Assembly (NCBI GenBank): GCA_002282015.1 | Contig: NCIJ01000003.1 | Coordinates: 62,001-126,000 of the forward strand | Length of the DNA: 64,000 nt | Origin: Sulfuricurvum sp. 17-40-25 | GTDB lineage: Bacteria; Campylobacterota; Campylobacteria; Campylobacterales; Sulfurimonadaceae | Reading direction: 5' to 3' | Part shown: piece by piece, positions 13,501 through 27,171 of the stretch | How positions within the stretch are numbered: position 1 is the stretch's first letter | Layout: each line of letters opens with the position of its first letter | Program-made: the position numbers and the translations under genes | The notes under the pieces: generated by a model | The model's input: only the letters and a program-made list of their open reading frames with translations | What the model was told of the DNA's origin: nothing | Database searches by the model: none

Positions 13501-13688
13501 GAGAGCTCTATTCTTAAACTACCATCCTTATCGGTATAGTAGCTGTTCTGTCTATCAAGTCGTACCTCATTGTTCGCCAATGCGGTTCCTTGATTAAATA
13601 TATAAAGGCTAAAAGTTCCAACAGCATCACCAAACAGGGGCGATACTACCCCTAAAACGATAAAAATAGCACCGAACAATCGTTTCAT
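10521..13688 (-). CDS. TonB-dependent outer membrane receptor with carboxypeptidase-like N-terminal repeats
   Basis: This 1055-residue receptor has a signal peptide (residues 1-22, IFIVLGVVSPLFGDA). Two CarboxypepD_reg-like beta domains follow (about 25-105 and 130-215). A TonB-box candidate EEFVVLA lies near 220. The plug (about 230-340) contains YVRGLGDRYSN, SPDPTKRVVPLDIFPS and FGGGYIDIRTK. A 22-strand-type barrel ends in FGITYKY. Receptors with this plug pattern often accompany TonB2-like machinery. The start codon is the ATG overlapping the upstream stop (TGATG), with GGGAG 8 bases before it. As last gene of the DUF3450-TtpC-ExbB-ExbD-TonB-TPR operon it is the likely dedicated client. 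The substrate cannot be told from sequence; siderophore, oligosaccharide or peptide are all possible. Confidence 0.9.
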   Translation of the reverse strand: MKRLFGAIFIVLGVVSPLFGDAVGTFSLYIFNQGTALANNEVRLDRQNSYYTDKDGSLRIELSLGKHQVEVFAKNKQGSNLGYSKKQVEIKEGKNTQLIVSFENEKEPSLLLETPDDNKESGIKKIDTTKMGILKGVVLSDDKRHPIANARLFVKGTFIDVRSDTNGHFSLSIPAEQNISISVVHSEYSSKTLNNLVVAKGVVKDQNVLLTPASVELEEFVVLAPKVGGSISSVMLEEKESQSISNILSSEEMSKKGDSDAAAALKRVTGVTLIGGKSIYVRGLGDRYSNIEMNSMPIPSPDPTKRVVPLDIFPSGVIESMKVQKSGTPDVPASFGGGYIDIRTKHDANDNYLRVSMETKGNSNTGKSVDGYQGGGSDWKGFDDGYRAIPAEILNNSQVVVGERMKAFTTSYFTQDELSKFTQNSLTRNYDVTQTKLPYGFKGFIEGAYKLQLDDKNKISFFGNYGYEQDHKFREESYARYEYDQATGELEIEPQQYGTLRNTTSKYKHAALFNLGYSFDDVLKLQYTKLYSHNTDDATRIASGIMGSNDENMTRYYLDWEERTLDVNQINGTFDYLLYDHPSTLTFGIEEAASKLYQPNNYQYVYRNEGVPYLDNRISNNIANNLQSDDEVSAFYVTNKLNYEIFSPEDYLEVGIAVSSKQRKSRQNKYYLRKLGGSSIVDDIDMTGSIESIYDEYVRADIPYNERPFIVGQLFNPADYFDAEVDEKSYYVSAFLNPTKQIEMLVGFRDVGFEQVVYQYKEDRENPDMTKRRLIQRIPESLTLNGIFPSISLKYKVDDKNHIDTAISKTYIVPDLREFTDGEYFHPYDVATVVGNPELKNTNIYSIDLKYSHFFSDTENIKFGLFYKLLDKPIEDVQIPSSSLPIYSFDNADSATLYGFEVDGRKELDFISSMLNGYFISGNFSYTDSDVTLRKEQEAIYTNNHRQLQGLSQTVLNFSCGYETSERSAVFSYNQMGERIRKVGMIDDIERFPDIYEFPASVLDFVWMEKFTPSFSGQLKLQNILDEETIWKQGGRVTNRYKLGQNFSFGITYKY

Positions 13689-14959
13689 CAGACACACTCC
13701 CTTGGATTAACTTTACATTTTTCAATATTCTTACGGATAATTGTCGCTTTTTGAAACAGATCATTATCGTTTATCAACTGCAGGTATATCTCTGCATTTT
13801 CATAATCTCCAACCATATAATATGAATAGGCTAGTACATAGATCATATTTTCATCATCATGCATCCCATTTCTCATCATCGCGTCTTTTAGACCGGTAAT
13901 TTGCTCAAACTCACCTCTCTCTAAATGCATCGCAATTTTTTGTTTAATGTTGTCTTTTTGATCTACTACATGTAAATTAAGATATAAAGCATGCGAATAA
14001 TCTTTGACTTGGCGAAAAGCCTCAACAGAGTCTTTAAGATATTTTTGATCTATATTGGCAGTGTTCTCCAAGATCGTTGCACCAGTGTGAGGCATCTCTT
14101 TTTTAAGATACACATTGGTCAACATAAGTCCAAATGTTGGATTGGATGGAAAAATCATTTTCCCCTCTTCAAGAATCATTATCGCATCTTCTGTTTGTTT
14201 GGCCTGTATTAACATTTGTGCAAGATAAAGATAATCATCTTCTTTTTTTCCTGCTTTATCAATGTAAACCTTGGCTGTTTCTACTGCTGCCTTATATAGC
14301 TTGAGTTCAGACAAATAAAAATACTTTTGTTTAAGCAATTGAACATCAGAGAATTTTTTATAACCGTAATTGAGCGCTTCCATCGCATTAGAATGCTCAC
14401 CAACTTTCCAATAACAATCTGCCCTAAAAGCAAATAATCCAGACTTATTTCGTCCATTTTCACCAGACAAATCGAGTGCTTCAACGCTTTTTTTATACTC
14501 TTTTAATTTATAGTACGATTGAGACAGATTTGCATAAAGACGTTCAATCTTAATTTGTCTATTACGTTCAAACTCAGGATCGATTTTGATCTCTTGCACT
14601 ACCTTTGATGTGCTGCCGATTTTAAAAAGGTACTTACGCTTTTTATCTTGAGCTTCTTTAGGGGAAACATACACCAACTTTTTGGTTTCATCAATCGCTT
14701 TAATAAAGTTTTCTACGGCTTGTTCGTGCTGATTTGTTTTAGATGCCAATGTCCCTTTTATTGTATAATATTTAGCACGATCCAATTCTGGAGAATTGAT
14801 ATCGACTAGATCCAATTCCGATTTAGCAGTATCATATTTTCCATCATAAACCATTGCTATCGCAATAGCCATATGATCAACTTCACCTTTTTTGGTATTT
14901 TCATCTGCACTATTTGCACACACCATTAGCATCAATACCAGTAGAATTTTTTTTATCAC
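13688..14959 (-). CDS. Periplasmic TPR protein of the TonB2-type cluster
   Basis: This 423-residue protein begins with a signal peptide (IKKILLVLMLMVCANS, about 1-18). It then consists of tetratricopeptide-like helical pairs (AIAIAMVYDGKYDTAKSEL, QSYYKLKEYKKSVEAL, VLAYSYYMVGDYENAEIYL) across most of its length. In Vibrio and Shewanella TonB2 clusters a TPR gene follows tonB2 in the same way, and there it is thought to help assemble or couple the complex; that role is inferred here. The gene sits 9 bases after tonB and overlaps the receptor start by one base, so translation is coupled. Confidence 0.85.
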   Translation of the reverse strand: MIKKILLVLMLMVCANSADENTKKGEVDHMAIAIAMVYDGKYDTAKSELDLVDINSPELDRAKYYTIKGTLASKTNQHEQAVENFIKAIDETKKLVYVSPKEAQDKKRKYLFKIGSTSKVVQEIKIDPEFERNRQIKIERLYANLSQSYYKLKEYKKSVEALDLSGENGRNKSGLFAFRADCYWKVGEHSNAMEALNYGYKKFSDVQLLKQKYFYLSELKLYKAAVETAKVYIDKAGKKEDDYLYLAQMLIQAKQTEDAIMILEEGKMIFPSNPTFGLMLTNVYLKKEMPHTGATILENTANIDQKYLKDSVEAFRQVKDYSHALYLNLHVVDQKDNIKQKIAMHLERGEFEQITGLKDAMMRNGMHDDENMIYVLAYSYYMVGDYENAEIYLQLINDNDLFQKATIIRKNIEKCKVNPRECV

Positions 14960-14968
14960 AATACAGTC

Positions 14969-15595
14969 CTAATTAAATTTGATCTTTTGTTTTGCCCACA
15001 ACTTAACCGGTTTTCCTTTATTTTTGCCAGGTGTAAATTTCCAATCTTTTACCCCTCTGGTTGCTGCTGCATCAAATACACCTGATGGCTGAGACTCCAG
15101 TACTTTAACCATCTCAACATTACCATCGGTATCGATCAACAGATTGACTACCACATACCCGTGCAGACCCTCTTTAGCAGCATTGCTTGGATATTCCATC
15201 TCGGTACGCGTAACCACTTTAGGTGGAGTATCAGCATTTCCCTCACTCTCATCTCCAGCTTGTTCCAGCAGTGATGCCGCATCTTGCATAAAGCCTCCAA
15301 AAGATAGTTCTGGAATATTCATCGCAATTCCCCCAAGCATAGAGCCAATATTTGGAAGTGCATTATTGTTCGCTTGAGCCTGTTTTTGTTCAGGCTTAGG
15401 CTCAGGTTTAGCCTGAGCTTGTTGTATTTGACTCTGTCGTTTTACATCCAAGATCCTGCTTTTAGTTACTATCACTTCTTCTTTTTTATCTACTGGGCGA
15501 TTAAGTACCACGATCAATAAAACCATCACCAACGAGCCAATTAATCCAATAAAAACAGGAAAAATTGATTTCGTTTTTTTATTGTTGTAAATCAT
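14969..15595 (-). CDS. TonB2-type energy transducer
   Basis: This 208-residue protein has an N-terminal cytoplasmic tip and one membrane span (about 10-32, FPVFIGLIGSLVMVLLIVVL). A short Gln/Pro/Lys-rich periplasmic linker (QAQAKPEPKPEQKQAQA) follows. A C-terminal TonB fold (about 120-208) has YPSNAAKEGLHGYVVVNLLID, SQPSGVFDAAA and WKFTPGKNKGKPV. The linker is much shorter than in TonB1, as in TonB2 proteins, which use the TtpC partner to span the periplasm. It lies 3 bases after exbD. It is the second TonB paralogue in this window, the other being at 3143-3820. Confidence 0.9.
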   Translation of the reverse strand: MIYNNKKTKSIFPVFIGLIGSLVMVLLIVVLNRPVDKKEEVIVTKSRILDVKRQSQIQQAQAKPEPKPEQKQAQANNNALPNIGSMLGGIAMNIPELSFGGFMQDAASLLEQAGDESEGNADTPPKVVTRTEMEYPSNAAKEGLHGYVVVNLLIDTDGNVEMVKVLESQPSGVFDAAATRGVKDWKFTPGKNKGKPVKLWAKQKIKFN

Positions 15596-15598
15596 TCT

Positions 15599-16003
15599 TT
15601 ACCCTATCTCTTTGGTCGTCGAAACAGCAACTTCTTTTGCACCGCTCATACGACACTCATCCACTACATCGATCAGCGAGTTGACTGGTATATTGGAATC
15701 TGAAACCACTAAAACCGATTTCTCTGTGGAAGAACGAAGCATGTCTCGTAATTTGGATTGCAAAGCCCACACTTTTATAGGTTGATTGTCCACATACACT
15801 TCATTGGCACTGTCAATATAAACACGTATAGTTTTAGCGTCTGATGCTGAAGCTGAAGCCGCTGCAGGACGGTTGAGATCCACTTTCATGTCTTTGACAA
15901 ACGTCGTCGTAACCATGAAAAAGATAAGCAAGATAAAAACCATATCAATTAACGGTGACAGATCCAACGAATCCACGTGATGATTTTTTTGTCGCAGTCT
16001 CAT
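15599..16003 (-). CDS. exbD: ExbD-type proton-channel subunit
   Basis: This 134-residue protein has one N-terminal membrane helix, LIDMVFILLIFFMVTTTFV (about 17-35). It carries the Asp that takes part in proton transfer in ExbD/TolR, and a periplasmic domain follows (TIRVYIDSANEVYVDNQPI). It forms the proton-driven motor with the ExbB-type protein encoded immediately upstream; their genes overlap by 4 bases (ATGA). TolR is an alternative by family, but the operon with TonB, TtpC and a TonB-dependent receptor favours ExbD2. Confidence 0.9.
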   Translation of the reverse strand: MRLRQKNHHVDSLDLSPLIDMVFILLIFFMVTTTFVKDMKVDLNRPAAASASASDAKTIRVYIDSANEVYVDNQPIKVWALQSKLRDMLRSSTEKSVLVVSDSNIPVNSLIDVVDECRMSGAKEVAVSTTKEIG

Positions 16004-16620
16004 GAATTATCCTTTGTGCATATAATGTCTTTTATTTGTTCAAATTCCAAAGAGTACATTTCCTCTTTTTTATCCAATATTTTTCCTAAAATAATGCCTG
16101 GAACCGCCACAACCAATCCCAGCTCAGTTGTGAAAAGCGCTTTGGATATCCCGCTGGAGATACTCGCCCCCTGTCCAAACAATCCACTGCTTGATTGAAG
16201 CGCATCAAACGTCTCGATCATCCCACTAACGGTTCCAAGCAACCCAATCAATGGTGCCAAAACAACAATTGTTTTAATCAAAATCGAATATTCTCGTATT
16301 CCGCGTACATACGGAAACATCGCATCCTCAATGTGACGACGAGGTAATAAGTTCAGATTTTTTACCTCTTCATAGGTATTCAAGGAGTCAATTACAACGC
16401 AATCAACTATTCCCTTAATCTCTTCTTCCTCTTTTTTAGTTTCATACTTTTCTATCAAGTAACGTACATTTCCTTGTCTCCCCCGCCGTAAAACTAGGAA
16501 ACGGTGTCCAATCGCATACCATAAAATAAAATTGAGTACAAAAAGGGGCCACATAATCGCCCCCCCGCCGTTGTTCATAAACGTAACAAAAAACGTTAAG
16601 CTCTGAAAAATAGGCTCCAT
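16000..16620 (-). CDS. exbB: ExbB-type proton-channel subunit (MotA/TolQ/ExbB family)
   Basis: This 206-residue inner membrane protein has three helices: about 18-36 (IMWPLFVLNFILWYAIG), about 110-135 (ILIKTIVVLAPLIGLLGTVSGM) and about 150-185 (ALFTTELGLVVAVPGIIL). The family signature PLIGLLGTVSGMIETFDAL is complete. With ExbD it makes the motor that energises TonB. It is shorter than E. coli ExbB, as is typical of the second ExbB in TonB2 clusters. It overlaps the TtpC-type gene by one base and exbD by four. Confidence 0.9.
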   Translation of the reverse strand: MEPIFQSLTFFVTFMNNGGGAIMWPLFVLNFILWYAIGHRFLVLRRGRQGNVRYLIEKYETKKEEEEIKGIVDCVVIDSLNTYEEVKNLNLLPRRHIEDAMFPYVRGIREYSILIKTIVVLAPLIGLLGTVSGMIETFDALQSSSGLFGQGASISSGISKALFTTELGLVVAVPGIILGKILDKKEEMYSLEFEQIKDIICTKDNS

Positions 16621-17939
16621 TATTTTGCCTGATTTTTCTCATAAAGATTAATTACATGCAGTGCACCGTGTTCCATGGCATCTTTAATGTTATTTGCCCA
16701 TCCGCTGAGCAGGTTTCCAAACAATAGCAACGGTATTGCCACTATTAGCCCCAATTCAGTCGTTACTAACGCTTCAGAAATACCACCGGATAAAAGCTTT
16801 GGATCGCTTGTTCCATGCTCAGTGATGCTATCAAATGTAGCAATCATCCCCGTAACCGTACCAAGTAATCCTAACAATGGTCCAACAGATGCAAGTACTA
16901 AAATAAATCCACCGAAGCGATCCAGTGGAGCACTTTCACTTAAAATACTCTCCATAACAATGTCTTCGACATGTTCGCGATCTCTACCAACATTTCGTAG
17001 TGCTGATTTAATTACACGAGCAGCTGAACCTTTGTAAGAAGCAATCGCTTCAAGAGCTTTTTGTGCATTTTCATTTTCTAGTTTTTCATAAACAATCTGG
17101 GTAATTTTTTTATCATCAGAACCTGCACGGTAAAGAAATAGCGCTCGTAATATGACTAAAAACAACCCTAAAAATCCAAGTGCGACAATGGAATACCCAA
17201 TTGGACCACCCGCTTTTAATACATCACTTAATGTTTTTTCTTTTTCAAATTCAACTTCTTTATCTAATGTTTCATAAATAAATATATTCAATTCTTCCGG
17301 CATTTTGCCATCGGCTAACATTTTTGCTTCGCTTTGTGGTCCTTGTTTATTCCAAAGCTTATATGTCCCATTCCCCGCCGGAGCAAGCGTTCCTGCTCCT
17401 TGTGCCGAAATACCATATGCGGCTACATTCCCGACACGAACAATCTCGCCTGAAACGCTGGTGCCGTCTTGAAGAAAAAACTCTCCTTTTGTTTTACGGA
17501 TCGACGAAAGCTCTTTAAATAATCGTGATGATTCGCTAAAAGCAAGCTCGATTGCGGCCAAATCGGAAATAGACTCATTTTTAATAGGGCTACCATAGTC
17601 ACTGAGTGCTGTTTTTACCTGTATTGCTACGCTTGAAACGATTTCCTTGTTACCGGTTGCATCGTCAAGTGTTTCTGATGTTTTTTTTACGTCCATTTGC
17701 AATGCATCCGTGGATCGTGTTGCTTGAATATACTGTTCTTGAAGTCCGCTGACTTCTTGATTTAGCTTTGCGATTTGTAAATCTTGCTCTTTTTTCTCTT
17801 TTTGCAGGCGATTTTGCAATTCAGTTTTTTGTGCTTTCAAAAACGCATACTCTTTTGCATACGCATTGGTAATTTCGTCCGCATGTGCTGATCCAAATCC
17901 TAAAGCTGCCGCTAATATGGCTGTTACTAATTTATTCAT
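16620..17939 (-). CDS. ttpC: TtpC-like MotA/TolQ/ExbB-family protein with periplasmic coiled coil
   Basis: This 439-residue protein resembles TtpC of Vibrio TonB2 systems. A signal peptide (1-20) is followed by a long coiled coil (about 25-110, FLKAQKTELQNRLQKEKKEQD) and a globular periplasmic part (about 110-240). The C-terminal ExbB-like unit has three membrane helices and GPLLGLLGTVTGMIATFDSI near 360, then TTELGLIVAIPLLLFGNLL. TtpC-type proteins are required for TonB2 function and probably extend the complex across the periplasm; this follows from the family. The neighbours (DUF3450 upstream, ExbB downstream) match the Vibrio gene order exactly. Confidence 0.88.
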   Translation of the reverse strand: MNKLVTAILAAALGFGSAHADEITNAYAKEYAFLKAQKTELQNRLQKEKKEQDLQIAKLNQEVSGLQEQYIQATRSTDALQMDVKKTSETLDDATGNKEIVSSVAIQVKTALSDYGSPIKNESISDLAAIELAFSESSRLFKELSSIRKTKGEFFLQDGTSVSGEIVRVGNVAAYGISAQGAGTLAPAGNGTYKLWNKQGPQSEAKMLADGKMPEELNIFIYETLDKEVEFEKEKTLSDVLKAGGPIGYSIVALGFLGLFLVILRALFLYRAGSDDKKITQIVYEKLENENAQKALEAIASYKGSAARVIKSALRNVGRDREHVEDIVMESILSESAPLDRFGGFILVLASVGPLLGLLGTVTGMIATFDSITEHGTSDPKLLSGGISEALVTTELGLIVAIPLLLFGNLLSGWANNIKDAMEHGALHVINLYEKNQAK

Positions 17940-18715
17940 TTTCCACCCTCCATCATTACCAAGGCATTTGGAAGTTGGAAATACCCTGTTCGAATCTGCA
18001 ATTTCAACGCATTGAACAATGCAGCAATTTTTTCTTTCTCGTTTTTATCTTGTGTTACCTTATATTTGTAACTGTTACCTTCTTTGACGACATAACCTAA
18101 ACGATTATCGGCTGTAGCAAAAAACATCATAACTGTCCCAATTTTTCCGATTTCACATAGTACTTTTTTATTATCCAAAACGATCTCTTGCTTGAACACT
18201 CCGATCTCTTTGGTCATACGTAGGTTATCGTCAAACCCTGCCCACACCAATGATAGTGCTTTTTCTTGAGTGATCAACTTATCATTAAGCTGTTGTTGTA
18301 TTTTGTTCACACCAGCAAGGCGCTCTTCTACTTTAAACGGGATTCCATTACGAATATTCTCTTTGAGTAAAGCCATTCCATTTTCTAACAAAGGTGTCAG
18401 CTCAATATTTTTCCCAGATGCCATAGCTATATTGGACTTCACCTTGGAAAGCTCCAGTTGAGCTAACTTCTTAGAAGTTGTTTGACGATTGAGCTGTGCT
18501 TTATTATCTGAGCTTTGAGAAGAGAGCGATTTCATTTGAGATTTATAGTTCTCTTTGTTTTCATCGATCTTAGAATAAAGCGATTCTACTTCGGAACGCA
18601 GTTTCATTACGGATTGAACCATCTCTTCATTACTTTGTACGGCTAACAGGGGAGATGAAAGCATTAAACAACTCAGTGCTAAAGAGACAACACCCTTTTT
18701 TTTATTTTCAAACAT
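17936..18715 (-). CDS. DUF3450 periplasmic protein of the TonB2-type cluster
   Basis: This 259-residue protein is the first gene of the operon. A signal peptide (about 1-25, LALSCLMLSSPLLAVQS) precedes a coiled-coil stretch (about 30-90, KLRSEVESLYSKIDENKENY). A globular C-terminal part follows, containing VWAGFDDNLRMTKEIGVFKQE and FFATADNRLGYVVKEGN. This layout and length fit DUF3450, which almost always accompanies TtpC/ExbB2/ExbD2/TonB2. CTGGAGTACAA precedes the ATG. Its stop overlaps the TtpC-type start by 4 bases. The molecular role is unknown; it is presumably a partner of the TtpC coiled coil. Confidence 0.85.
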   Translation of the reverse strand: MFENKKKGVVSLALSCLMLSSPLLAVQSNEEMVQSVMKLRSEVESLYSKIDENKENYKSQMKSLSSQSSDNKAQLNRQTTSKKLAQLELSKVKSNIAMASGKNIELTPLLENGMALLKENIRNGIPFKVEERLAGVNKIQQQLNDKLITQEKALSLVWAGFDDNLRMTKEIGVFKQEIVLDNKKVLCEIGKIGTVMMFFATADNRLGYVVKEGNSYKYKVTQDKNEKEKIAALFNALKLQIRTGYFQLPNALVMMEGGK

Positions 18716-19657: not shown

Positions 19658-21835
19658 TTACTTAGCTCTACCTAAGCCTATTTTGTTGCCTTTAAATTCA
19701 ACGATCTCTACCATCAACTCATCTCCCTCTTTGATCACATCGCTCACACGACCTACATGTCCATCGGAGAGTTTTGAAATATGAATAAGACCGTCAATTC
19801 CACCTGGAAGTTCAATGAATGCTCCAAAATCAACGATTTTTTTAACTTTACCTTGTACGATATCGCCCACTTTGTAATCCACTTTTTCTACTGGAGTCAA
19901 ACCGCTCGTGATCCCCTCAATATGATCACGTGCCCCTTTGATCCCCTCTCTGTTTTTACCTGTGAGTTTAACAGAGCCTTTTTTCTTATCAATATCAATG
20001 GCAACATCAAAACGCTCAATGATCTCACGTATCGTTTTACCCGCTTGACCAATAATATCACCTATGAAACTAGGATCCACGTGGAATAAATCCGTGCTTG
20101 GCAATGTCCCCTCGTTGAGTTCAATGTTCTCTTCAGATGCCATCATAATATCAATGATATGAGCACGTGCTTCTTTGGCTTGATACAATGCTTCTTTGAG
20201 GATATCTAGGTGAATTCCACCCAGCTTAATATCCATCTGCATAGCAGTAATACCTTCTTTTGATCCGGCTACTTTGAAATCCAAATCTCCATCATGATCT
20301 TCTAAGCCCATGATATCGGTCAAAATAGCATGACGATTTCCCTCTTGTACCATTCCCATGGCCACACCCGCGATTGGATCACATACTTCGATATCTCCTG
20401 CACGCAATGCCATATAGCCGCCACATATCGTAGCCATTGACGAAGAACCGTTTGACTCTAAGATTTCAGAAACGAGACGGATCGTTTGTCCATTTCTCAC
20501 TGTAGCGCCTTCAAGTGCTCGTTTGGCCAAGTTTCCATGACCTAATTCACGACGTCTTGGAGCACCGATGGGTGACGCTTCTCCTACGCTAAATCCTGGG
20601 AAATTATAATGAACCATAAAGCCTTCATTTTGAGTGCCATGATCCGTTAGACCTTCGTACATCTGGGCATCTTTAGGCCCGCCAAGCGTCAAGACTACAA
20701 GCGCTTGAGTTTGTCCACGTGTAAAGAGTGCAGAGGCATGTGCACTTGGCAATACATTCGTTTCAATACTGATTGGACGAACGTCTTTAAAACCACGTCC
20801 ATCTGATCGTACCTTATCATCTAAAATCTGTGCACGAACCATAGATCGTTTAACGGATTCTATCGCTTTTTTGAGTTCGTGTTCATCCCATTGTGTTTTT
20901 TCTGTCATCACAGCTTTACGAATCGTTCTAAGTGCCGTTGAACGTTCAGTTTTGGCCATTTGACTAATACCGCGCTTGAGATCATCGGTATGAACCTCAC
21001 GTACATAATCACACATTTCTTCATCAATGTCTTTAATTACACACTGCAGTTCAAACGGTGCTTTGGCATAAGCTTTGAAAGCATTTTCATACTTTGTGTT
21101 TGCATCCAAAAGAACGGCTTGTGCCTGTGCTAAGACATCGATTAATTCATCCTCACTCATTGCATTAGATTGGCGCATAGAGATACTTTGAGATGCCATG
21201 ACCGGATCCACAAACGGATCAGCTAATCCCAATTCAATAATCTGTGCTTCATCACTGCCCAGTGCTTGCATCTCGATCATCAGCATATCGTCTTTGCTTC
21301 CCGCCAAATAAAGATCAAAGGTACTGCGTTGCAAATCACTGTGTTTTGGATTGAAAACAATTTCACCGTCAATTTTAGCAACACGAACACCGGTTACTGA
21401 GTTAAAAATATCAATATCCGAAATGTATAAAGCTGCCGATGCTGCATTAAGACCCAATACTTGCAAGTCGGCATCTTCATCCGCACTAAGCACTAAAACG
21501 GAAATTTGTATCGGATTCGCAAACCCTTTTGGAAACAAGGGACGCAATGAGCGGTCAATAATACGGGATGTTAATGCCTCAAAATCGCTTGGTTTTGTTT
21601 CACGCTTGATAAAACCACCCGGAAATTTACCTGCCGCGTAACTTTTCTCAAGATACTGTACCGTTAAAGGTAAAAAGTCTTCATCTACAAAATGCGTTTC
21701 ATCGATAACAACGGTTGCCAAAATAACAGTATTTCCCGATTTAAGCCATACGGCACCATTGGCTTGCGCCGCTACTTGATTGAGTGCATAAGACTCTTCT
21801 TTGTTTTTTAATGCCAGTTCGACGGTATATTTCAT
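19658..21835 (-). CDS. pnp: Polyribonucleotide nucleotidyltransferase (PNPase)
   Basis: This 725-residue enzyme degrades RNA 3' to 5' by phosphorolysis and can add tails. It has two RNase PH domains (about 5-220 and 300-535), the second with RRRELGHGNLAKRAL and GDLDFKVAGSKEGITAMQMDIK. A KH domain (about 555-615, FIGDIIGQAGKTIREI) and an S1 domain (about 635-705, GKVKKIVDFGAFIELPGG) follow. I chose the ATG at 21835, with TAGGA 8 bases upstream; codons further up overlap the MCE gene. It ends the minus-strand run that begins at purD, 16 bases after the MCE protein gene. Length is close to the family norm. Confidence 0.96.
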   Translation of the reverse strand: MKYTVELALKNKEESYALNQVAAQANGAVWLKSGNTVILATVVIDETHFVDEDFLPLTVQYLEKSYAAGKFPGGFIKRETKPSDFEALTSRIIDRSLRPLFPKGFANPIQISVLVLSADEDADLQVLGLNAASAALYISDIDIFNSVTGVRVAKIDGEIVFNPKHSDLQRSTFDLYLAGSKDDMLMIEMQALGSDEAQIIELGLADPFVDPVMASQSISMRQSNAMSEDELIDVLAQAQAVLLDANTKYENAFKAYAKAPFELQCVIKDIDEEMCDYVREVHTDDLKRGISQMAKTERSTALRTIRKAVMTEKTQWDEHELKKAIESVKRSMVRAQILDDKVRSDGRGFKDVRPISIETNVLPSAHASALFTRGQTQALVVLTLGGPKDAQMYEGLTDHGTQNEGFMVHYNFPGFSVGEASPIGAPRRRELGHGNLAKRALEGATVRNGQTIRLVSEILESNGSSSMATICGGYMALRAGDIEVCDPIAGVAMGMVQEGNRHAILTDIMGLEDHDGDLDFKVAGSKEGITAMQMDIKLGGIHLDILKEALYQAKEARAHIIDIMMASEENIELNEGTLPSTDLFHVDPSFIGDIIGQAGKTIREIIERFDVAIDIDKKKGSVKLTGKNREGIKGARDHIEGITSGLTPVEKVDYKVGDIVQGKVKKIVDFGAFIELPGGIDGLIHISKLSDGHVGRVSDVIKEGDELMVEIVEFKGNKIGLGRAK

Positions 21836-21851
21836 TCTAATTCCTATGTAA

Positions 21852-23249
21852 TTATCGCGCCATGGATGCGGCGCCAAAAGTGTATTTTATATCGTTGTCG
21901 ATGAATCGCATTCCCACCCCTAAGAAAAGGTTTTGTGCTCTAGGATTTAAAAAGTTATCCCAACCGCCGTAGACTTCTAAATGTTTTAGCATCTGATAGC
22001 GAAGTTGCGCTTTAAGATGAACACGATCTCCGCGAATGTCATTCATCGCATTAAAATCAAAGGCTTCACCTGATATTTTTAAACGATCATGATTTGCAAA
22101 ATAATCCACTCCAACCCCGCCTGTTGACTCAATAAGTCCAAAACGCAACAAAAAGTCATCAAAACGTTTTCCATACTGTGCTGAGTAGAGCTTATTTGTC
22201 TCAACATGCTTTCCTGGAGTCACATTAGGCTTGGAATAATCATCTGTACTGATCAAGTCAAGCATATAATAGGTTTCAGGATTGGGAAGATACGTGATTC
22301 CTAAATATATTTTTGAATACTCATCCCTCATCATATAATCGGCATGCATGGCTATTTGCAATTCACTCGTTGTAAAACTAGAAAGCAAGGTGTCAACTCT
22401 ACCAAATGCCTCTTCACCGCTTTTGAAAAAAGAGCCAGCTGAGGAAATTGTATCTTTAAGGCCAGTACGGTTTTCTGCTAACATAACACTGACATTGTCT
22501 TCAATTTTCGTAAATTTATCAACAGCTTCAGGAAGCTTATATTCTAATGCACCACTGATATTATCCAACCGCGTCGTCAAAGAATTGACGCGTGTCATAA
22601 TTTCCGGTAAATCTTTATTAACGGTATCAGCTGTTTGACTAAATCCGGCACTCATATCTTTAAAATTAGCGATTGCAGCATAAAGATTTTGACGGTTGTC
22701 CCCAATAACACCATTGAGATTAACTCCTACATCGCGAAACGCAATAATCGCTTCTTGAATTGCTTGACGATGTTCATCGTCCAAGGTTTCTCTAAAATCA
22801 TGCAGTAATAATTCCATCTCTTTGGCAGCAGCATTGACTGAATCGCTTGTTTGATCAAAAGAAGCATAGCGTTTTGACTGAACAAGGGTTCCCCCTTTTT
22901 GAAGCATACTTGTAGCATCTCCAACGGCAATGTTTACCACCTTTGAGCCTAATAATGATTCTTGGGTGACAATGACCGCTGAATCATCAGGAATGTTAAC
23001 CCCATCATTAATCAAAAGGCTCAAGCGAACACGTTTTCCCTCGATCGTAATATCTTTAATCTCACCGATCGTTACCCCGTTCATTAATACATGGGTATGT
23101 TTTTCAAGCCCTGACGCGTCATCTACATATGCTTCGATTGGATAACCGCTTTGACCCCATTTCCCCAGTGATGTTACTTGAGTCGACAATATAAGTAAGG
23201 CTCCCAATGCCAGTACTACAAAAAGGCCTATTTTTGCTTCGAGTTTCAT
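21852..23249 (-). CDS. MCE/MlaD-type lipid transport protein with barrel-like C-terminal region
   Basis: This 465-residue protein has a membrane anchor (about 5-25, IGLFVVLALGALLILS) and then an MCE domain (about 35-115: YPIEAYVDDASGLEKHTHVLMNGVTIGEI, SKVVNIAVGD). A long helical stretch (about 130-285) follows. The C-terminal 165 residues are rich in alternating aromatic strands (KIYLGITYLPNP, YSAQYGKRFDDFLLRFGLI, LEVYGGWDNFL, LFLGVGMRF) that look like an outer membrane barrel or beta-rich cap. MCE proteins bind and shuttle phospholipids between membranes. A gene beside lptD fits an envelope role. The C-terminal assignment is inferred from the pattern. Confidence 0.82.
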   Translation of the reverse strand: MKLEAKIGLFVVLALGALLILSTQVTSLGKWGQSGYPIEAYVDDASGLEKHTHVLMNGVTIGEIKDITIEGKRVRLSLLINDGVNIPDDSAVIVTQESLLGSKVVNIAVGDATSMLQKGGTLVQSKRYASFDQTSDSVNAAAKEMELLLHDFRETLDDEHRQAIQEAIIAFRDVGVNLNGVIGDNRQNLYAAIANFKDMSAGFSQTADTVNKDLPEIMTRVNSLTTRLDNISGALEYKLPEAVDKFTKIEDNVSVMLAENRTGLKDTISSAGSFFKSGEEAFGRVDTLLSSFTTSELQIAMHADYMMRDEYSKIYLGITYLPNPETYYMLDLISTDDYSKPNVTPGKHVETNKLYSAQYGKRFDDFLLRFGLIESTGGVGVDYFANHDRLKISGEAFDFNAMNDIRGDRVHLKAQLRYQMLKHLEVYGGWDNFLNPRAQNLFLGVGMRFIDNDIKYTFGAASMAR

Positions 23250-23257
23250 CTCTGCCC

Positions 23258-25393
23258 CTATTGGTTATTAGTGATTTTATAATTAAATGCAGAACCGCCA
23301 ATCGGCTTTAAAATCAATGTAATAAATATATAAGAATCATTGACTGCATTGTCATTATTGACATTGGTAAGAACCGGGCGAATATTTTGTACAAAACGCA
23401 AACCTAAGTCCAAACATCTTTGAGAATACAGAAAGCCAATTTCTTTTCGCTTCATCAATTTTTCTCTGTAATCATACGCTACCAGTCCAAAAAAACGATA
23501 GTTTCGATCATACTGATACGATGCGTCAGCTGTCCAATAGCTCGAGTACACACTAGTACCATTTTTTAATACATCTGAATAATGATGATTCAGTGCTCCC
23601 GATACAACATGATCATTATAGCGTATCGTATTGAGCTCTTTACTCACTCTTGAACGCTCATGATTATATGCCGTGACATTGTAATAGCTAATAGACTCTG
23701 CAATTTCCCATTCCAATTCATTGGTTATTTCACCGTAGTAATTCCCGGTATTGTCATAACGAAAATTTTGTGAAAGCCGATCGACTATCGTTTGTTTTCC
23801 ATTTTCAAAAAGATAGTTGTTGACTCCCAAAGAAAGCGTATCTCTCGGACTTTGTAAGGTAAAAAATTCACATACTGGATCCGTATTTCCATCGACGCAT
23901 ACTTCATTATAACGCTTATAATAACCTTCATAATAACGATTTCCAGCAAAAGTGTACGCTATATCAGGGGCGATAACATGCGTCTTTGTCCCATAAGGCT
24001 TAACAAGTGTTGTCCCTAGTTTGAAAGTATGATCAAGCTGCGCGTATTGTCCAGAGTCATAGGCATCATTGCTCTCACCAGACTGTGCATTTCCGTAAAA
24101 ACCGATCAAACGACCGCTTATATGTGCCGTATAGCTAGCATCAATAGTGTTATCAAACAAACCAGTTTGCAAAATAAGGGGAATATTTACATTACCTTCA
24201 ACCGCTCGTTTTCCATCAGGTCTGTAAAAATTTGTCACTGAGGTATCAGCATTATAAAGTAAGTGATCGCCTAGTAAATTTTCCAAATAACGATGGTAAT
24301 TCAATGTTGGCAGAATTTGAATTGTTTTACTGTTCTCGGCGATATCAAGATATTGATAATGTTTCAAATACATCCCGAGATAATCATCTTCATCACTGTA
24401 ATACGCATTAATCCGCGATAATATCTGACTTGTAGTCACGGTCTGTGTTTCATCGGTTCCTTGTAAATTAAGGTAATCAACGTCATTCATCCAACTACCC
24501 TTAACGTATAAGCCCGACTCTCCTTGAATATTTAACCCAAACCATTCCTCTAAAAAAGCAGTATGATGATAGTCAATATCATACCCATAATGTTTTTCAT
24601 GCGCTAAATCACGCTCTTGAGCATATGCTGCTTGTTCTTTAAAATAACCCATTCTAATCGATCCAAAAGAAGAAGCGGTATCCACAAATCTAAAATCTGC
24701 ATAAAGACCCTCTCCACGCGATGTTCGGATTTGAGGACGTAACTCTGCATCCCACCAGTTTTGCGGTGCAATATAAATAGGCTGTTGATAAAGAAACCCT
24801 TCAGAGCTTGATACACCAAGGGTAGGTATCAACAAACCGCTACGGCGAGTTTTATCCGTTGGATATCCAAAATAGGGAAGATAAAAAAGCGGAATGTCTT
24901 GGACATAGAGACGTGCATTATAAATATTCATCCACATCTTATCGGTGTTATAATCAGCACTGCTAAAGTGTATTTTCCATACAGGGTCTGTTGAATTACA
25001 TCCCGATAACATTCCGCTTGAAAGATCGATTTGACTTTCACATGCATCGGATTCTTGCGTACTAACCCATAGTTTTGTTTGATGGTCAATCATGTAAAAA
25101 GGACGAGATTGACGGGTATCTGTGTCCATATTCAATTTTAAGTAATCACTCATTGCATGAAGCGTACCATGCTGAAAAACAGAGACATTACCCTCCGCTT
25201 CAATAATACTCGAATTGCGGTCATAGGAAAGACGATTTGCCGTTACGATTTTATCCTGATAGGTAATAACAGGATTCCCGTAAGCATTGACTACCGATCC
25301 ATTGGTATCAGCGCTTGATCCTAATAATTCCACACGATCATTGGCCAGTACAGCACTGCATGCAATAATACTAAGGCAAATCAGTTTACGCAT
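23258..25393 (-). CDS. lptD: LPS-assembly protein LptD
   Basis: This 711-residue outer membrane translocon places lipopolysaccharide in the outer leaflet. A signal peptide (1-17) is followed by an OstA/LptA-like jellyroll (about 20-130: YQDKIVTANRLSYDRNSSIIEAEGNVSVFQHG). The LptD signature YLPYFGYPTDKTRRSGLLIPTLG comes near 180, then a barrel of about 500 residues. The Cys pattern (DACES, SGCNS, EVCVD, PVCEF) provides the pairs expected for interdomain disulfides. It overlaps the RDD gene by 8 bases and precedes the MCE gene by 8, so the three are translated in one run. Confidence 0.94.
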   Translation of the reverse strand: MRKLICLSIIACSAVLANDRVELLGSSADTNGSVVNAYGNPVITYQDKIVTANRLSYDRNSSIIEAEGNVSVFQHGTLHAMSDYLKLNMDTDTRQSRPFYMIDHQTKLWVSTQESDACESQIDLSSGMLSGCNSTDPVWKIHFSSADYNTDKMWMNIYNARLYVQDIPLFYLPYFGYPTDKTRRSGLLIPTLGVSSSEGFLYQQPIYIAPQNWWDAELRPQIRTSRGEGLYADFRFVDTASSFGSIRMGYFKEQAAYAQERDLAHEKHYGYDIDYHHTAFLEEWFGLNIQGESGLYVKGSWMNDVDYLNLQGTDETQTVTTSQILSRINAYYSDEDDYLGMYLKHYQYLDIAENSKTIQILPTLNYHRYLENLLGDHLLYNADTSVTNFYRPDGKRAVEGNVNIPLILQTGLFDNTIDASYTAHISGRLIGFYGNAQSGESNDAYDSGQYAQLDHTFKLGTTLVKPYGTKTHVIAPDIAYTFAGNRYYEGYYKRYNEVCVDGNTDPVCEFFTLQSPRDTLSLGVNNYLFENGKQTIVDRLSQNFRYDNTGNYYGEITNELEWEIAESISYYNVTAYNHERSRVSKELNTIRYNDHVVSGALNHHYSDVLKNGTSVYSSYWTADASYQYDRNYRFFGLVAYDYREKLMKRKEIGFLYSQRCLDLGLRFVQNIRPVLTNVNNDNAVNDSYIFITLILKPIGGSAFNYKITNNQ

Positions 25394-25835
25394 TAACGAC
25401 CACCGTTTTAGCCGTCAAATCATGCCAACTTCGTCGATAAGGATCCAAAAAGGCCCAGACAAATCCAAAATACATAAGGGCTTCACTCACAATTCGAAAT
25501 ACAGCCCGATTAAAAGCCGCAAAAAAGGCAGGATTTGATAATGTATTCACTTCTATAATGCGAATTTTCATCACAATTTTTCCCAATGTTGCTCCGTACT
25601 GCATCGTAAAAAAAGTTTGATAGACAATTTTAATTGCCATAAATTCAAGTAAAAAATGATTGGTAAGTCCAATAATCGCTTCTACCGATGTTGCTTGTGA
25701 GATAGTGTCCCAAAGAACAATCAAGAGCAAAGTCGAGATTAATACTTCATCTATCGCCAAAGCCACTGAACGTGCTTTTAGTGATGCAATCTGAAGATTT
25801 TCACGATCCAATACGTCATCGAGCTGTTCATTCAT
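25386..25835 (-). CDS. RDD family membrane protein
   Basis: This 149-residue protein carries the RDD fold: RSVALAIDEVLISTLLLIVLWD (first helix with Arg and Asp), a middle helix around KIVYQTFF, GATLGKIVMKIRII, and FRIVSEALMYFGFVWAFLDPYRRSWHDLTAKTVVV. That closing motif is the usual end of RDD proteins. Three or four membrane spans are expected. RDD proteins are small inner membrane proteins, some linked to ion transport or envelope assembly; the role here is unknown. It overlaps purD by one base (TAATG) and lptD by eight. Confidence 0.88.
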   Translation of the reverse strand: MNEQLDDVLDRENLQIASLKARSVALAIDEVLISTLLLIVLWDTISQATSVEAIIGLTNHFLLEFMAIKIVYQTFFTMQYGATLGKIVMKIRIIEVNTLSNPAFFAAFNRAVFRIVSEALMYFGFVWAFLDPYRRSWHDLTAKTVVVNA

Positions 25836-27103
25836 TAGCGAAGGGCTTGATAGGCTATATCGGTACGTAATTTTTTACCTGCAAAGTGGACTTGACCGCA
25901 GAGCATATAGGCGCGATCTCGTGCACTTTTAATACTGTCTCCGACTCCAACACATACGAGAACCCGTCCACCATTTGCATAAAGCTTGCCATCTTCTGCG
26001 CTGACCCCTGCATACGAAATATGTGTGTTTTGAGCAATGTCATCATGATGAATAGTATCCACCACAATCTCAGCGGGAACAGAGCTGTCGTAAGGATAGT
26101 TTTTACTTGCCATCACCACACCTACAGCGTACTTATCATGAAACTCGATATTAAGAGTATCGAGTTGTTTCGTTGCTGCTTTATAAAACAGTTCACTCGC
26201 TGGGGTTTTAAGTAAAGGCATCAATATCTCACATTCTGGATCTCCAAAACGGACATTGAACTCCAAGGTGATCGGTTCCCCATTGACCACCATAATACCG
26301 ATAAAAAGAACACCCTCAAACGGGGCTCCTTCTTTTTGCATTCCCAGTAATGTCGGTCGAACCACGCGCTCTTTTACTTTCTCATAAATCACATCATCCA
26401 CAAGGGGGGTTGGCGCATACGCACCCATTCCACCCGTATTTGGACCTTCATCACCGTCCAAAAGACGCTTATGATCTTGCGCTGCTGGTAGAAGGATAAA
26501 GTCTTTTCCATCGCATAGTGCAAACATGGAAAGTTCATAGCCGTCTAAAAATTCTTCGACTATTACTCGTTTTCCCGCATCACCAAACGATTTACCGCTA
26601 AGCATTTCAGAGACCGCTATTTTTGCTTCATCGTAGGTTTGGGCGATAATAACCCCTTTACCTGCACACAAGCCATCTGCTTTTACCACGATCGGAAGCG
26701 GTAAAGTGGCAATAAATTTAAAGGCCTCTTCAATGTGTCCTGTTTCAATGTAGCGCGCTGTAGGAATCGCGTATTTGGCCAAAAAGTTTTTCATATAGAC
26801 TTTTGAACCCTCAAGCTGTGCTGCTGCTTTACTAGGACCAAAGATCACCAAGCCTTTAGCTTTGAAGATATCAACAATTCCCTCTGTCAAAGGGCCTTCT
26901 GGACCGACAATCGTCAAATCAATCGCATTATCAAGGGCAAATTGTGCAAGTTCCTGAAAATCGCTAAGTGCAACATTTTCACCCAACATTGGAGTTGCAC
27001 CGTTACCGGGAGCAAAATAAACTTTTTCAACCGCTGTGTCTTGCGTTAATACTCTCCCTATGGAAAACTCACGCCCACCACTACCGATTATCATTACACG
27101 CAT
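25835..27103 (-). CDS. purD: Phosphoribosylamine-glycine ligase
   Basis: This 422-residue ATP-grasp enzyme joins glycine to 5-phosphoribosylamine to give GAR, the second step of purine synthesis. The N-terminal motif [16 protein letters not shown], the ATP-grasp region ([19 protein letters not shown], near 145), the [17 protein letters not shown] block and the [10 protein letters not shown] metal site are all intact. I chose the ATG at 27103 with GGGG six bases upstream; a GTG two codons earlier lies within that spacing. It is first in the purD-RDD-lptD-MCE-pnp run and lies 68 bases after the probable 6S RNA, which it may share a transcript with. Confidence 0.96.
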
Positions 27104-27171
27104 ACACACCCCGTTACAATAAAATAATACACTTTATAAAAAACCACTGTTTGGCATTTTAAAAATGTAAA

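Follow-up and report, generated by a model that had tools for sequence, protein, structure and literature searches.

A barrel-tipped MlaD encoded behind lptD in Campylobacterota, probable component of a Veillonella-type MlaEFD transporter

The Mla system of Escherichia coli (MlaFEDB, MlaC and MlaA) contains an MlaD protein of 183 residues, and PqiB and YebT (LetB), which are likewise MCE proteins of diderm bacteria, span the periplasm and carry several stacked MCE domains. Three or seven MCE domains are counted in PqiB and YebT (PMC5561183), and a periplasm-spanning role is stated for PqiB (PMC10897342). In mycobacterial Mce1 (8fed), one MCE domain is followed by long tunnel-building helices, and each chain gives one strand to a shared six-stranded barrel (PMC10665443). 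The architecture that concerns us here is already published: according to Grasekamp et al. (2023), MlaD of Veillonella parvula combines an N-terminal membrane helix, one MCE domain, a helical stretch of about 150 residues and a ten-stranded C-terminal barrel. Its separated domains fractionated with the two membranes, mutant data are given too, and mlaEFD form one operon before tolC and tamB, the arrangement of the Negativicutes (PMC10665443). The proposal that a barrel MlaD replaces MlaA and MlaC draws on one organism and on a broad survey that sought MlaF by gene neighbourhood; genomes with a barrel MlaD tended to lack MlaA and MlaC in that survey, a tendency and no rule (PMC10665443).

A protein of this layout is encoded in the window, by which we mean the whole stretch of 64,000 nucleotides of Sulfuricurvum DNA analysed here (Table 1). 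As judged from the described layout, it shares with V. parvula MlaD the membrane helix, the single MCE domain, the long helical stretch (residues 131-292 here), the ten-stranded barrel and the absence of MlaA and MlaC. Unlike in Veillonella, mlaD lies behind lptD, and mlaE and mlaF stand alone at two other places, which makes three loci; that MlaE and MlaF are its partners, as in Veillonella MlaEFD, is indicated here by co-occurrence. With the E. coli system it has in common an MlaD-type MCE domain, an MlaE permease and an MlaF-like ATPase, but the MlaD protein has 465 residues and a barrel, and neither MlaA nor MlaC was found. The single MCE domain distinguishes it from PqiB and YebT, and the ten strands predicted for each chain distinguish it from Mce1. 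What is added here for Campylobacterota is that the gene is linked to lptD, which genes are its likely partners, and that it excludes MlaA and MlaC; among the papers listed by literature searches we recognised none on a barrel MlaD beside lptD or on scattered mlaEFD genes in this phylum, and the survey in PMC10665443 may contain such sequences. We consider it probable that the barrel protein serves as the MlaD subunit in a phospholipid transporter that crosses the whole envelope, as Veillonella MlaEFD does, that is encoded at three loci and that replaces MlaC and MlaA.

Table 1. Positions of the genes and protein regions discussed (window positions unless a contig, C, is given).
Feature	Position	Strand	Basis and remarks
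Barrel-tipped MlaD (MCE) gene	21852..23249	minus	465 aa; ORF and translation, Pfam MlaD, orthologues
lptD	23258..25393	minus	Directly upstream of the barrel MlaD gene, 8-bp gap; NCBIfam LptD models and synteny
RDD-family membrane protein gene	25386..25835	minus	Pfam RDD, E 9.1e-21
purD	25835..27109	minus	Pfam GARS domains
pnp	19658..21835	minus	Directly downstream of the barrel MlaD gene, 16-bp gap; Pfam RNase_PH, PNPase, KH, S1
N-terminal inner-membrane helix, residues 3-26	23172..23243	minus	AlphaFold2 and hydrophobic sequence
MCE domain, residues 35-124	22878..23147	minus	Pfam PF02470; Foldseek to the E. coli MlaD core
Amphipathic long helix (proposed tunnel wall in the periplasm), residues 131-292	22374..22859	minus	AlphaFold2 (low pLDDT), hydrophobic period, orthologue length
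Predicted ten-stranded barrel, residues 296-451	21897..22364	minus	AlphaFold2; matches with outer-membrane barrels in Foldseek and VIA-align
Turn joining barrel strands 2 and 3 (YLPNPETYY, conserved), residues 320-328	22266..22292	minus	Alignments
Last barrel strand, G-x-G-x-x-F end, residues 442-449	21903..21926	minus	Invariant columns of alignment A4
Lone MlaE	C34:114525-115319		265 aa; adjoins a gene with RadA-like domains
Lone MlaF-like ATPase	C1:234201-234950		Behind a DUF4149 gene and prmC, facing ftsZ

The barrel MlaD gene starts with an ATG at 23249 and its stop codon ends at 21852, and the forward reading of the same interval in frame 1 has many stops; the coordinates given in a preliminary description are correct, and the strand is minus. 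The gene belongs to a run of purD, the RDD gene, lptD, the barrel MlaD gene and pnp, in which the genes from purD through barrel MlaD are separated by 8-bp gaps or overlap. The lptD, RDD and purD neighbours named in that description were borne out by the NCBIfam LptD models (E 3.6e-34, though under the model cut-offs) and by the Pfam RDD and GARS domains. The Pfam domains of pnp were read on a longer TTG frame (to 21877), with an ATG at 21835. Related loci with 73-88% identity number 32, 26 of them from Sulfuricurvum. Elsewhere in the window (13688-18715, minus strand) lies a cluster that encodes a TPR protein, a TonB protein, an ExbD/TolR-like protein, two ExbB/TolQ-like proteins, one of them with a long N-terminal part, and a protein of 259 aa.

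The preliminary description had read the protein as an inner-membrane anchor, an MCE domain and a long helical stretch, and prediction and comparison support this layout. A single Pfam MlaD (PF02470) stretch was found at residues 35-108 (E 4.2e-16, above the cut-off), and the MCE part superposed on the E. coli MlaD core 5uw8_B with an rmsd of 1.7 A in Foldseek. The AlphaFold2 model of the full protein, built with 24 sequences, has a helix at 3-26, MCE strands at 35-124, helices at 131-292 and ten strands within 296-451; it matched MlaD and Mce1 structures in Foldseek, Mce1 being the second row. A profile of the full protein likewise matched MlaD and Mce chains among the PDB sequences, none of them past residue 289. 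Over 35 aligned orthologues the pre-MCE stretch (34 residues) and the MCE stretch (91) are constant, and the helical stretch ranges from 145 to 184 residues. Its helices were modelled with a pLDDT of 27-40 in most blocks, about 30, and its periodicity was also analysed. In the window protein the hydrophobic period is 100 degrees, with a power of 174.7 (maximum of 114.9 in 200 shuffles), and the best angle was 100-102 degrees in 35/35 aligned sequences, which fits a long straight amphipathic helix. At a helix rise of 1.5 A per residue, 160 helical residues would span about 24 nm, by this estimate close to the width of the Veillonella periplasm. The latter was measured as 24.2 nm (PMC10665443). 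As a separate observation, the lengths of the helical stretch often lie 7 residues apart between families (145, 152, 159, 166; 170, 177, 184), with few others (146, 175, 176); to judge from the alignment, it is as if helix turns had been gained or lost.

The last part of the protein, described earlier as aromatic alternating strands, gave a ten-stranded barrel in two AlphaFold2 predictions: in the full model the block means of the barrel were 55 to 85 pLDDT, except 44 in the S3-S4 loop, and the C-terminal part predicted alone again folded into ten strands (mean pLDDT 77.7, pTM 0.70). Alternate positions differ by more than 1.9 units of mean hydropathy in 9 of the 10 strands, strand 3 scarcely alternating (0.4). 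We rejected the idea that this alternation arose by chance, because the fold recurs in the two predictions and the helix period exceeds that of the shuffles. By sequence, the barrel gave a single row at E up to 1 in the PDB, an antifreeze protein at 0.43, and in Pfam, for 27 barrels, one weak match of one member (E 0.09); the barrel has no Pfam family. The turn between strands 2 and 3 (Table 1) has an invariant first Y and first P in alignment A4, the remainder differing between families. In the last strand, G-x-G-x-x-F-x-D is kept, among other invariant residues, in 27/27 aligned barrels, and its G-x-G-x-x-F end presumably resembles the outer-membrane beta-signal. In the alignment of 35 sequences the turns S1-S2 and S2-S3 are of 4 residues each and loop S7-S8 is of 13, all constant, although in another alignment one sequence (L114) carries 4 inserted residues close to S1-S2. 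Loop S9-S10 has 8 residues, except 7 in L074 and 30 in L119, and loop S3-S4 ranges from 13 to 28. The barrel of L119 (genome G017) has a 22-residue insertion in S9-S10 and an S3-S4 loop longer than in the other 34 sequences.

Could this domain be a beta-barrel that stays soluble in the periplasm, where it would bind lipid and cap the helical tunnel without ever entering the outer membrane? Strand alternation alone cannot separate the inside from the outside face, and VIA-align gave scores to BFA1 (Z 12.2), nitrobindins (to 11.5) and OssO, Rv0813 and AttH-like proteins (Z of at least 10), all of which we take to be soluble; this is why we keep it as a rival. Its higher rows, however, were outer-membrane barrels, namely OpcA (Z 15.9, rmsd 2.9, 141 aligned), Legionella porin I (15.7) and Pla (13.7), together with the designed membrane barrel TMB10 (12.8), and the five Foldseek matches at E up to 0.001 (Ail, OprF, TMB10, OmpA and OMPLA) are all membrane barrels. 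The loop that varies widely in length, S3-S4, would face the cell surface were the chain to come in from the periplasmic side, and the invariant end of the last strand also argues against a cap. We therefore hold a soluble domain to be very unlikely. Nor do the orthologues end before the barrel, which is present in nine family groups (found with a profile that includes it). The further proposal that one polypeptide reaches from the inner to the outer membrane is supported by the predicted barrel and its matches, by the amphipathic helix and by the published Veillonella protein of the same layout; on these models the protein may well do so.

We then looked for the partners. The genome of the window has three MCE genes and three MlaE genes. 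Two of the latter, on contigs C1 and C14, each adjoin their own MlaF gene, a short barrel-less MlaD gene and a lipoprotein gene (Pfam ABC_trans_aux; the match passes the cut-off on C1 and falls short of it on C14). The third is the lone MlaE, next to a gene that we take to be radA; a radA-like gene was seen around it in 14 of 20 loci. The best NCBIfam model for the lone ATPase was MlaF, below the cut-off, and its surroundings recur as well (prmC and DUF4149 each in 18/20 loci, ftsZ in 17/20). Among 397 Campylobacterota genomes, 48 have an orthologue of the lone MlaE (E 1.7e-77 or better, with the following tier of matches beginning at 5.0e-32) and 47 have the barrel gene, 46 of them sharing both. 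The barrel gene was counted by a profile search whose opening scan was loose, so that divergent barrel copies may be missed. Fisher values take no account of relatedness among the genomes and are not relied on. The two genomes with lone MlaE and no barrel gene (G004, G440) gave no lptD match either, and the barrel locus is therefore probably missing from those assemblies. One genome (G433) has the barrel gene and the ATPase and lacks the lone permease. For MlaF, MlaA and MlaC we used 40 of the 49 genomes with barrel gene or lone MlaE and 40 of the 348 with neither, both samples picked by hand for spread over genera and families and including related genomes, and absences hold at the thresholds of the searches. 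The lone MlaF was present in 40/40 of the first set (E 1.4e-77 or better) and in 0/40 of the second (best 2.5e-51).

These counts bear on another possibility, that the barrel MlaD works with one of the clustered MlaE-MlaF pairs and not with the lone permease and ATPase. Such pairs do exist on C1 and C14, but each has its own short MlaD adjoining, and of the 46 genomes that have the barrel gene together with the lone MlaE, 29 show no second match to the MlaE query; we give this possibility almost no credence. A single match each to PF02470 and to the lone MlaE query was obtained in 17 of the 47 genomes with the barrel gene, meaning that no other partner was detected there, and in at least 11 of these 17 the PF02470 match is the barrel MlaD itself. 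Comparison of genomes supports the lone MlaE and lone MlaF as its partners. A lone permease and ATPase would escape a search by neighbourhood, and now that both are named the swap is directly testable.

Some features of the other copies are recorded here. The clustered MlaE permeases (L101:5734-6852 on C1; L102:3440-4555 on C14) have an N-terminal extension of more than 100 residues with weak STAS matches below the Pfam cut-off; the lone MlaE is without this extension and no STAS domain was detected on it. MlaB is said to be missing in Campylobacterota (PMC11756786); from the sequences, it may be fused to the clustered permeases. The third MCE cluster lies on C14 (L102, 8512 bases), a contig that also holds a transposase piece (PF13751), and nine other genomes of the genus have one or two MCE matches each; since the contig is small and carries this piece, and given the counts in the genus, the C14 copy may be acquired or a contaminant. 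Two genes without Pfam match (171 and 197 aa, L124:6417-7519) precede the lone MlaE in the genome of the window and in a relative (L126), and were not recognised in the other 18 of the 20 lone-MlaE loci. In genome G151 two TGA codons interrupt the frame of the MlaF-like match, and lptD is in pieces, one of which also contains a TGA; either the genes are broken or the assembly is in error.

MlaA was found in 0/40 genomes of the barrel-gene or lone-MlaE set as compared with 23/40 outside it, and MlaC in 0/40 as compared with 21/40; the genome of the window itself (G000) gave no match to either. Within the sampled Campylobacterota, as far as such searches reach, the occurrence of barrel MlaD without MlaA and MlaC is therefore exceptionless. 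One phylum thus holds both solutions in relatives, mutually exclusive in the 80 genomes tested. Outside the set, 17/40 genomes lack MlaA and 19/40 lack MlaC, some lacking both, so that barrel MlaD and MlaA/MlaC are not the only solutions; Helicobacter pylori is reported to have neither (PMC11756786).

From the predicted architecture and the gene partners we infer the following arrangement. At the inner membrane, the N-terminal helix and an MCE ring would be joined by the lone MlaE as permease dimer and the lone MlaF as its ATPase. A hydrophobic tunnel across the periplasm would be lined by amphipathic helices, most likely those of six subunits, and the C-terminal barrels would enter the outer membrane and hold the mouth of the tunnel there. 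Barrel MlaD would do the work of MlaC and MlaA, most likely by returning mislocalised phospholipids from the outer to the inner membrane. Its expression would be tied to LPS delivery through the lptD gene cluster, which we suppose to be an operon.

The same architecture and partners could also serve anterograde transport or another hydrophobic substrate, or act mainly as a membrane tether, the link to lptD then reflecting the building of the outer membrane and not its clean-up. The gene is indeed linked to lptD and not to mla genes, and Grasekamp et al. ask whether transport could be two-way and call the barrel too narrow for a phospholipid (PMC10665443). Against this, the exclusion of MlaA and MlaC in the sample fits a shared function, and tamB mutations are reported to suppress Veillonella mla mutants, read as opposite transport functions (PMC10665443); neither point fixes the direction for Campylobacterota. 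We regard this family of readings as unlikely, if worth keeping in mind, and retain retrograde phospholipid transport as the probable function.

The place of the gene is nearly fixed. It lies directly behind lptD in 18/18 genomes and in 40 of 41 further loci, the exception being L074 (Thiovulum); L073 (contig end) and L076 (no barrel gene) were left out of the 41. Of 35 genomes searched for lptD 33 gave a match, and 30 became loci and were examined (G116, G190 and G113 left out). In 29 loci from genomes that lack the barrel gene, a profile of the barrel protein drew no match with an E value of 1 or less, the control locus (G433) scoring 2.5e-212, and pnp was on the same strand within the 1.5-kb flank in 26 of these 29. 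A tree of 49 genomes was made with genes of the lptD locus, and not with species markers; along it the barrel gene switches state 8 times, and at least 5 of these switches fall on supported branches. Over 5 independent contrasts, lone MlaE and MlaF changed the same way as the barrel gene in 4.9 and 5.0 on average, whereas MlaA and MlaC went against it in 4.2 and 4.1 and never along with it; 5 contrasts are too few for a sign test to go below 0.0625. The fixed places across families point, on this comparative evidence, to descent from an early ancestor, with the three unlinked genes lost together.

A more far-reaching idea is that the barrel docks on LptD or shares its insertion site, so that LPS would be delivered and phospholipid removed in a coupled way at a single site in the outer membrane; were it true, the fixed place behind lptD and the matched divergence of the two proteins would be traces of contact. 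Distances of barrel MlaD and LptD correlate with an r of 0.875 over 18 genomes (0/2000 permutations as high), as shared descent alone would also produce, and we consider docking quite improbable.

In the genome of L076 (Desulfuromonadales) the MCE protein is short, and a search for the barrel, run without a positive control, found nothing. On plasmids the MCE part had four distant matches, of which two carry an Mce annotation. Finally, a phosphoribosyltransferase-like gene, absent at that place in the window, was seen between lptD (or the barrel gene) and pnp in many loci; it encodes 200-280 aa (L108:9369-9959, for example), with 22 matches in 30 loci.
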